Of a stretch of 38,496 bases of DNA, positions 28,296 through 31,550 are shown in pieces (positions within the stretch are counted from its first letter, which is position 1; every line of letters begins with the position of its first letter). Below the pieces are notes generated by a model that did not search any database, was not told the origin of the DNA, and saw nothing but the letters and a program-made list of their open reading frames with translations. This DNA is from Planctomycetota bacterium (GTDB lineage: Bacteria > Planctomycetota > B15-G4 > JADJEK01). The position numbers were made by a program, and so were the translations under genes. The stretch spans positions 10,656-49,151 of the forward strand of contig JACQZJ010000054.1 in assembly GCA_016213895.1 (NCBI GenBank), read 5' to 3'.

Positions 28296-29351
28296 ATGAG
28301 GTTTGGACCATCGCGGTGGGCGGCGCGCCGCGGGCGCGCGCTCCTTTGCTGCGCGCTCGCTGCTTCGCTCCTCTTCTGGGCGTGCGAGAAGCAGGACCAG
28401 ATCGGGTCGATCTCGCAGTATCAGCGCGGCGCGGGCGACGGGGACGGCGGCGACGGGCGGGATCTCCCGGCCAGCGGCGTCATCACCCTGAAGGCGCTCT
28501 ATCCCGGCGCCCAGCTCGGTCAGGGTGAGCCGAGCGTGAACCAGTTCGGCCCGCCCGATTCGCAGGGGCAGGGATTCCAGCAGGGCGGAGCGGCCGTGAC
28601 GACGCCCGTGGTCGCGATCTTCTCCGAGTCCATGGACACGGACACGATCACGGACAAGTCCTTCATCCTCACGAGGGGAGGCGGGGGAGGAGGCGGGATC
28701 TTCGATACCATCGGCGGCGGCGGCCAGACGGTCCAGGCCTTGGTCGCGGCCGACCCGACCACCATGGGGCGCGTGGCCGTGCTCCTGCCGGTCAACGTCC
28801 TCGAGCCCGGCGTGAGCTACACCGCGACGCTCGGGTCCACGATCACGGATCTCGAGGGCAAGCCGCTCGCCGCGACCGCCGGCTCCGACCTGGGCGGCGC
28901 GTCGGGCACTTCCTTCACCTTCCGCACCGCGAGCTTTGATCAGCCCTTCGAGGTGATCGGCATGTACCCGCCGCCGGAGGACAGGAGCGCTCCGGTCGAC
29001 ACGATGATCTACCTCTATCTGTCCATGCCGGCATCCAAGGGCGCGCCGGCCGGGATCGATCTCTCGGGCAAGGTGCAGGTGACGCTGCTCGGCTCGACCG
29101 GTCTGATCGAGGGCAAAGTGAAGGTCCTCCCCGACCCGCGCGTGGTGAGCTTCGATCCGAAGCAGCCCTTTCCCCAGGGCGCGACGGTCAGGGTCCGGGT
29201 CCTGAAGGGCGTGGCGAGCGCGCCGGTCACGGTCGAGGGCCAGACGCTCTCCTCCACGCTGCAGAAGGACTACGAGGGGCGCTTCACGGTCAACAGCGTG
29301 CCCATCCCCACCCAGGTCAAGCTGGTGGACAACCAGCCGCTGACGGTCTAG
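28296..29351 (+). CDS. Ig-like lipoprotein, N-terminal part before an in-frame TAG
   Basis: 351 residues up to the amber codon at 29349-29351. Start ATG 28296 gives a basic N terminus, a hydrophobic core (ALLCCALAASLLFWAC) and a lipobox-like FWAC, so a lipoprotein is predicted. An Asp/Gly-rich linker follows (GAGDGDGGDGRD). Residues about 95-210 resemble a SbsA-type Ig-like domain: 'TTPVVAIFSESMDTDTITDK', 'NVLEPGVSYTATLGSTITDL'. A second similar unit follows ('APVDTMIYLYLSMPASKG', 'VVSFDPKQPFPQGATVRVRV'). The reading frame continues past the TAG with no change in composition, so this is probably the front of a single 1,084-codon gene. It could be a functional truncated product, a nonsense mutant or a base error. 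Confidence 0.7.
   Translation: MRFGPSRWAARRGRALLCCALAASLLFWACEKQDQIGSISQYQRGAGDGDGGDGRDLPASGVITLKALYPGAQLGQGEPSVNQFGPPDSQGQGFQQGGAAVTTPVVAIFSESMDTDTITDKSFILTRGGGGGGGIFDTIGGGGQTVQALVAADPTTMGRVAVLLPVNVLEPGVSYTATLGSTITDLEGKPLAATAGSDLGGASGTSFTFRTASFDQPFEVIGMYPPPEDRSAPVDTMIYLYLSMPASKGAPAGIDLSGKVQVTLLGSTGLIEGKVKVLPDPRVVSFDPKQPFPQGATVRVRVLKGVASAPVTVEGQTLSSTLQKDYEGRFTVNSVPIPTQVKLVDNQPLTV
29349..29351 (+). other. In-frame amber codon interrupting the Ig-like lipoprotein frame
   Basis: The frame reads ...QPLTV-TAG-GAGFDGRLTQENLKSF and stays open to 31550. No frameshift, start site or Shine-Dalgarno sits at the junction. TAG is used as an ordinary stop by at least eight genes here (the HEAT gene, secG, pyrE, rpoZ, a TPR gene, queC, a small lipoprotein gene and rpsO), so general TAG reassignment is unlikely. 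Confidence 0.8.
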
Positions 29352-29408
29352 GGCGCGGGCTTCGACGGGCGCCTCACCCAGGAGAACCTGAAGAGCTTCA
29401 AGAGCACC

Positions 29409-31550
29409 GTGAAAGTGCCGCAGAGCGGCGGCGGCGCCGACTCGGTGACGCTGCTCTTCTTCCAGCAGAAGGGCGCGGGCATCTCGGCGGCGCGCGGCTT
29501 CAAGAAGGAAAACACGCCGGGCCTGGTCGACTTCGACGTCAACCTGTCCAAGGGAGGCGAGACCGCGGCGTTCGCCGACACGCGGAGCCTGGAGCAGACG
29601 CTCCTGGTGGGGGCCTTCGCCAGCCGCGGCAACCTGAACTCGCCGGTGGGGCCGGCCGACCTCACCACGGTCTTCGTCAAGACCTCCCTGCCGGAGGTCA
29701 CCCTCGGGCCGCCGAGCGAGGAGGGCTCGCCCTACGAGCTCCGCACCGTGCTGGCCGAGCCGGCCATCTACGGCACGGCGAGCGAGCAGATCACTTCCTT
29801 CCGCGCCGTGGTGAACGCTACGTCCTTTCCCTCGACCTTCGAGGCCCTGCAGCTCTCGGGCGTTCTTGGCGTGGCGGACGAGAACCTCTTCTTCATCACC
29901 GCGCTCGCCGAGGCCGTGTTCCCCGGCACCGAGCTCGGCTCCGCGCCGCGCTACCTGCCGCTGCCGCTGGACGAGGTGCGCTTCCAGGACTTCATCGGCA
30001 ACCAGGTCATCGCCCGGCCGCCCGAGACGGGCGCTCTGCATTTCGAGGGCTCGATCGGCGGGCCGATCGGCGCGGCGCAGAAGGGCGACCTCTTGGTGCG
30101 CGTGGTGCGCGAGGACACGCTGCAGCCGCTGAAGAACGCCACGGTGCGCGTGACCGGCTTCCCCTACGACCCGCTCCAGGTCCCGGTGAAGCACAGCACC
30201 GGCGGCGACGGGGAGGCGGCGTTCAGCCACGCCCAGCTTCTCGCCTTCGGCCCGCACGTCATGCTCACCGCGGAGAAGGGCAAGTACGACCTGTTCACGC
30301 TCGCGGGCTTCGAGAACCCGGGCGTCACGGGCAAGCGCTTCGGCGTGAGCGTGGTCCTCAGCCGCACGGAGGACGCGCGCGCGCGCGTGACGGTCGAGGC
30401 GCAGAATCACGTCCCGGTCCCGGAGGGCGGCAAGGCTGCCGCCTTCTTCGCCGCGGCCTCCGGGACCGGCCTTCCGGTTGCCGCCGATCAGGCCAAGTAC
30501 CTGGGCAAGGACTTCTCGGACGAGCGTTTCTTCCTGCGTTCGCTGCCGGACGCGAAGACCACGCGGGCCTCGGCCCTGCTCGACGTCGAGAAGAACCGGC
30601 CGCAGGTGATCAGCACCTTCGAGCACGACGGCCAGGCCAGCCCCATGGGCGCCTACGTGTTCTATCCGCGCTCGGTCGAGGCCTTCGGCCAGGACGCCAC
30701 GCTCCTGCTCAACTACACCCTGGCGGGCGCCAACGTGTCGCAGAGCGTGGCGAACACCGTGGTCACCTGGGCGGACATCCAGGCGGCGGGGATCACCGAT
30801 CCCCCGCCGGACGTGACGCGCGGCCGCCTGGTGGGCGCCATCCCGGGGCTGTGCGGCCTGCTGCCGCTCTCGTTCTCGCCCCTGCCCGTGAACCCGAACG
30901 ACCTGGTCAACGTCACGCTCTTCGCGGCCATTCCCCAGAGCCTTTGGGTGAACGAGGCTGCGCCTGCGCTCGATCCCGCCTACGAGCTGCTCCTGCAGCC
31001 GGACGCCGGCCTCGGCGCCCTGCCGCCCGCGGAAGCGCTCCTGGAGCAGGCCTTCCGCTTCGAGGTGGAGGCGGCCGACGTGGACGGCAGCCGCCTCACC
31101 CGCCACCGGGCGCTGCTCGACTTCACGTACAACGTCCAGGCCGTGACCGCGCCGGCCGATCCCCCGGACCTGCCGGTCGTGCCGGTGGTTTCGGTGCAGC
31201 CGGCCACGCATCCGCCCGCTCTCACCATCGACATCGACGACGGCGGCACGCCGGACATGGTGCCCGCGGATTCGCTCTACCGCTTGACACTGCGCCACAA
31301 GAAGCACGCGCGCGCCTGGACCGTGCTCTTCTCGGCCGAGGCGGCCACCACGGTGCCCGGGCCGGTGAACTTTGCCTTCCCGGCGACCAAGGCCGACCCC
31401 TTCGACGCGGCCGGCAAGTACCTGCTCGAGGTCGAGTCGATCGAGTTCGAGGCCGGGCAGTTCGACTTCGACTCGTTCGTCTTCTCGGACGTCGAGCGCC
31501 GGCACCGGCGCCTGTCGCGGCGCGCGCTCGAGATCAACACCAAGCCATGA
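29409..31550 (+). CDS. Ig-like lipoprotein, C-terminal part after the in-frame TAG
   Basis: The frame reopens directly after the TAG (29352); the first usable start is GTG 29409, which has no good Shine-Dalgarno and would drop 19 residues of matching sequence. From GTG it would be 713 residues without any signal peptide, which is odd for a protein so rich in extracellular-type strands ('VGPADLTTVFVKTSLPEVTL', 'DLLVRVVREDTLQPLKNATV', the latter like a carboxypeptidase-regulatory/CNA-B-like fold). This supports the view that it belongs to the upstream lipoprotein. The middle and end hold 'NYTLAGANVSQSVANT' and a late 'LTIDIDDGGTPDMVPADSLY'. No enzyme motif. The TGA stop overlaps the queC ATG, so expression of queC may depend on translation reaching this point. 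Confidence 0.65.
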   Translation: MKVPQSGGGADSVTLLFFQQKGAGISAARGFKKENTPGLVDFDVNLSKGGETAAFADTRSLEQTLLVGAFASRGNLNSPVGPADLTTVFVKTSLPEVTLGPPSEEGSPYELRTVLAEPAIYGTASEQITSFRAVVNATSFPSTFEALQLSGVLGVADENLFFITALAEAVFPGTELGSAPRYLPLPLDEVRFQDFIGNQVIARPPETGALHFEGSIGGPIGAAQKGDLLVRVVREDTLQPLKNATVRVTGFPYDPLQVPVKHSTGGDGEAAFSHAQLLAFGPHVMLTAEKGKYDLFTLAGFENPGVTGKRFGVSVVLSRTEDARARVTVEAQNHVPVPEGGKAAAFFAAASGTGLPVAADQAKYLGKDFSDERFFLRSLPDAKTTRASALLDVEKNRPQVISTFEHDGQASPMGAYVFYPRSVEAFGQDATLLLNYTLAGANVSQSVANTVVTWADIQAAGITDPPPDVTRGRLVGAIPGLCGLLPLSFSPLPVNPNDLVNVTLFAAIPQSLWVNEAAPALDPAYELLLQPDAGLGALPPAEALLEQAFRFEVEAADVDGSRLTRHRALLDFTYNVQAVTAPADPPDLPVVPVVSVQPATHPPALTIDIDDGGTPDMVPADSLYRLTLRHKKHARAWTVLFSAEAATTVPGPVNFAFPATKADPFDAAGKYLLEVESIEFEAGQFDFDSFVFSDVERRHRRLSRRALEINTKP

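Follow-up and report, generated by a model that had tools for sequence, protein, structure and literature searches.

In-frame amber (UAG) codons that are read through, suppressed or reassigned, including those decoded as pyrrolysine, are one natural comparison for the locus described here, which shares with them a TAG flanked by conserved coding sequence. It differs from them in that the stop is not conserved, no tRNA with a CUA anticodon was found, PylS stays below its cut-off and TAG is a common terminator in the genome. A second comparison is with pseudogene-like consensus errors in draft metagenome-assembled genomes. Here the likeness lies in isolated stops and missing stretches that occur in one assembly, sole-copy core genes included, and that are intact in relatives; the difference is that in the present case these defects are known from the assembled sequence. 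A literature search for cases in which assembly errors account for premature stops in metagenome-assembled genomes returned nothing relevant. Oxidised guanine is a well-described source of artefactual G>T changes (PMC12390751), and the in-frame stops of pseudogenes come mostly from transitions, such as those that start from TGG (PMC8629427). At the protein level, the gene resembles bacterial Big_5 lipoproteins (PF13205) in its Big_5 domain, its N terminus looks like a signal peptide with a lipobox, and it has orthologues in three relatives. By contrast, its 732-residue C-terminal part gave zero Pfam matches and, in a sequence search against solved structures, chance matches only.

The window, by which we mean the whole stretch of 38,496 nucleotides that was analysed, contains a frame of 1,084 codons consisting of 351 codons, the TAG, 732 further codons and a terminal TGA at 31548–31550 (Table 1). 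A sequence-only reading of this DNA had described one continuous lipoprotein frame split by a single TAG, and that description holds: both halves translate in the same frame with strong codon bias, and homologues from three relatives span the junction as one protein. The Big_5 match in the first half is significant (E = 1.8e-11, Pfam), and the domain also exceeds its gathering score in orthologues from relatives (46.0 and 54.5 bits). As that reading had also stated, the translation of the second half carries no signal peptide, and its sole candidate start is a poorly placed GTG at 29409 with no Shine–Dalgarno-like sequence at the right distance. The proposed overlap between the end of the frame and queC was likewise confirmed, with two relatives showing the same ATGA arrangement. 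The locus is best explained as a single, ordinary gene that codes for a large Ig-like lipoprotein of the cell surface and lies directly upstream of queC.

Table 1. Features of the lipoprotein locus and of other loci in the same assembly. Plain coordinates are positions in the window.
Feature	Location	Strand	Evidence or state in relatives
Single gene for a large exported lipoprotein, broken by one TAG in the assembly	28296..31550	+	Translation; continuous frame in three relatives
Apparent signal peptide with lipobox (LLFWAC)	28296..28385	+	Read by eye from the translation; N termini of relatives similar
Big_5 Ig-like domain (PF13205), residues 98–209	28587..28922	+	45.1 bits versus a cut-off of 23.6
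In-frame TAG, private to the assembly	29349..29351	+	Codon alignment: sense codons in relatives (same genus, GAG; same family, GCG in both)
Downstream 732 codons under purifying selection, without own start site or export signal	29352..31547	+	dN/dS 0.34; start scan
ATGA overlap of lipoprotein stop and queC start	31547..31550	+	Sequence comparison; conserved in two relatives
TAG in probable ATPase	L088:3424		GAG in G001
TAG in probable hydrolase	L093:16630		GAG in G001 and G002
TAG in E2/sucB	L132:4226		GAG in G001
TAG in grpE	L148:15406		GAA in G003
TAG	L077:712		CTG in G001
TAG	L073:3212		GGG in G002
TAG	L195:5516		Frame open in G001 and G002
TGA in rsmB	L217:9556		Frame open in G001 and G002
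gatB, missing stretch and frame change	L091:4544
icd, missing stretch and frame change	L219:7985
mutL, missing stretch and frame change	L079:4347
tRNA-Sec (UCA)	G000:C97:39338-39428 (L149)
tRNA-Sec (UCA)	G000:C214:11416-11509 (L150)
Thioredoxin-like UxxC protein, likely selenoprotein	L139:1628-1630		TGA common to G001 and G002
Peroxiredoxin-like protein, likely selenoprotein	L196:18784-18786		TGA common to G001
FG-GAP-like repeat protein, in-frame TGA (GGS-UGA-GNHFG)	L062:801-803 = G000:C59:40801-40803	-	TGA common to the same-genus relative

A homologue search across 98 genomes recovered the gene in three relatives, all from the same family-level group: one of the same genus (the sister, G001), whose copy appears to lie on public contig DYIW01000264.1, and two of the same family. 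All three encode a single uninterrupted lipoprotein whose frame is open through the TAG site, where the codon alignment places sense codons (Table 1). Measured against the sister, dN/dS was 0.44 before the TAG and 0.34 after it; coding constraint persists past the stop, as programmed readthrough would predict and as an error or a young mutation would predict equally. Downstream of the TAG, we counted 31 private residue changes in this genome versus 28 in the sister. Of the 172 downstream columns that are invariant in the three relatives, 8 are changed in this genome, and the sister is changed at 6 of the 170 that are invariant in the other three genomes. No further stop occurs among the 732 downstream codons, of which 132 could become one in a single step. 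An old nonsense pseudogene was rejected, given the missing second stop and the symmetry of changes with the sister. Given the lack of downstream decay, the TAG must be very young, bypassed or not real.

Isolated stops of this kind recur in the same draft genome. Scanning 2.37 Mb for codon bias and then comparing the candidates with relatives yielded eight further in-frame stops without a counterpart in relatives, seven TAG and one TGA (Table 1), a count that leaves out L089:5868. Most of the in-frame stop candidates from this survey were ordinary gene ends with a new start a few codons on; L131:4996 and L206:7051 were also set aside as ordinary gene ends, the sister too having a stop nearby. 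The names sucB, grpE and rsmB are those of the best NCBIfam matches when reading across the stop. A frame-switch scan gave 31 candidate frame breaks. Each of gatB, icd and mutL falls into two pieces that match one and the same family, with approximately 80–120 profile positions missing between them. These missing stretches and frame changes in core genes, together with a single N in a glycine dehydrogenase-like gene at L094:1989, are signs of local misassembly. The scaffolds contain runs of N. Separately, at L148:12384, with a run of N approximately 140 bases before it, a GroEL-like frame seems to break off mid-protein and to be followed directly by a GroEL-like N terminus in another frame, as tandem copies or misassembly might produce.

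The assembly contains no second copy of grpE, rsmB or gatB, and only distant paralogues of E2 and icd are present elsewhere in it. A living cell with a broken sole grpE and a broken sole gatB is not credible, and the assembly therefore contains errors. Because the same assembly breaks sole-copy core genes, the TAG in the window is most simply one of these errors, and we infer that the window base is to be counted among them. The stop at 29349 is present in the given sequence and most likely absent from the organism; it would be a wrong consensus base in a draft metagenome-assembled genome, a reading to which we assign a probability of about 65%.

The type of base change bears on how such errors might have arisen. 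Wherever the sister has Glu at a private stop (the window, L088, L093 and L132), its codon is GAG (4 of 4), one G>T from TAG. With all relatives counted, Glu is aligned at five of the nine private stops including that of the window. In the probabilities for GAG>TAG given below, the grpE site is counted as GAG, the codon read there being GAA in a distant relative. These nine stops comprise eight TAG, one TGA and no TAA. GAG accounts for 5.7% of codon usage in the genome. Under uniform mutation, GAG>TAG is expected to make up 24% of nonsense changes (P(≥5/9) = 0.044), and under models biased towards transitions or towards GC>AT the expected share is 16–18% (P(≥5/9) = 0.008–0.013). With almost exclusively G>T or C>A changes, the expected share is 45% (P(≥5/9) = 0.39). 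The excess of TAG among the private stops is itself expected because of codon usage, TAG making up 68% of random nonsense changes under uniform mutation (P(≥8/9 TAG) = 0.17). The CTG and GGG aligned with two of the private stops are not explained by a single G>T. The miscall in the window would probably be a G>T of the kind made by oxidised guanine, and we infer oxidative damage as the chemistry of the TAG errors, from numbers that are small and with two sites that misfit.

Of the alternatives, a real nonsense mutation that arose very recently in the population sampled survives best, although we consider it rather unlikely. Such a mutation would truncate or abolish the lipoprotein, with possible polarity on queC. 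It would take one base change from the GAG of the sister, would likewise show no decay and would fall in a gene not known as essential, but real mutations cannot account for every stop and missing stretch seen in grpE, rsmB and gatB, each of them present once only. GAG>TAG is moreover a transversion, over-represented relative to a transition-biased expectation. If the stop were real in some cells, the product would be a 351-residue fragment, and the 2.2 kb left untranslated could lower queC expression.

If a suppressor tRNA or near-cognate decoding inserted Glu, or a different residue, at UAG with some frequency, the full lipoprotein would be made; we regard this as very improbable. The preponderance of TAG among the private stops and their alignment with Glu are what suppression would predict, but that preponderance is equally predicted by codon usage; the stop in rsmB is TGA, and the lost stretches in gatB, icd and mutL are beyond the reach of suppression. 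None of the 37 tRNAs in the assembly (approximately 95.5% complete) has a CUA anticodon, in a tRNA list that lacks about eight of the tRNAs expected, including those for His and Ile, a gap that leaves some room for suppression. When the whole assembly was searched for the pattern of a CUA anticodon loop with a T-arm after it, three places matched, and no CUA tRNA was among them. As the genome has two tRNA-Sec genes, a tRNA-Sec with a CUA anticodon was also considered, but both read UCA. Pyrrolysine decoding was rejected, the top PylS match scoring 19.8 bits where the cut-off is 178.15. The check for a suppressor tRNA that had been proposed from the sequence alone lent readthrough no support. 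TAG terminates 338 of 1,280 gene-like frames (approximately 26%) across the 2.37 Mb, which agrees with the earlier judgement that whole-genome recoding is unlikely; in place of the at least eight local TAG-ended genes cited in its favour, we count five further coding-like frames that end in TAG within the window, considering frames of at least 60 codons only. TAG being common as a terminator, with no tRNA-CUA found and PylS below its cut-off, strong UAG suppression in this genome is therefore unlikely. The more specific version, in which the lineage reads UAG as Glu at low to moderate efficiency through a suppressor tRNA absent from the draft and retains UAG as a terminator, has a slimmer chance still. 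If suppression were the true reading, UAG would serve two purposes in one bacterium, which would be new.

We give next to no probability to programmed readthrough at the TAG site, or to a pair of separate genes there: the frame is open on either side and a GTG follows, but the stop is conserved in none of the three relatives, an Rfam scan around the TAG found no element, and the second half has neither a ribosome site by the GTG or near the TAG nor an export signal. One continuous protein and a sense codon at the site in all three relatives therefore exclude both a true split gene and conserved programmed readthrough. Of the four options offered by the sequence-only reading, nonsense mutation and sequencing error thus remain, and the two-protein version fails once homologues are aligned across the junction. 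Suppression and readthrough together retain a small chance, against which a consensus base error remains our preferred reading.

A separate lead concerns UGA. The assembly holds two different tRNA-Sec genes with the same UCA anticodon (73.1 and 71.8 bits), which is unusual. This pair and the in-frame TGAs shared with relatives (Table 1) are signs of a real recoding system. Among the proteins concerned, the FG-GAP-like repeat protein is a candidate new selenoprotein. Measured against the same-genus relative, dN/dS is close to 0.21 before as well as after its TGA, and one substitution occurs in the 57 bases that follow; a hairpin with a GGUCU motif is predicted approximately 15 bases past the TGA. 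A full-text literature search for FG-GAP, selenoprotein and selenocysteine together found no paper.

These results carry a caution for the interpretation of isolated amber codons. Of the codons that a single G>T turns into a stop, GAG is far more frequent than any other in GC-rich draft genomes, and damage-type errors will therefore give isolated TAGs that mimic amber readthrough. Inspecting core genes that the assembly in question carries in one copy is a quick test that separates error from amber readthrough. The conserved in-frame UGA of the candidate FG-GAP selenoprotein is more interesting than the TAG in the window.
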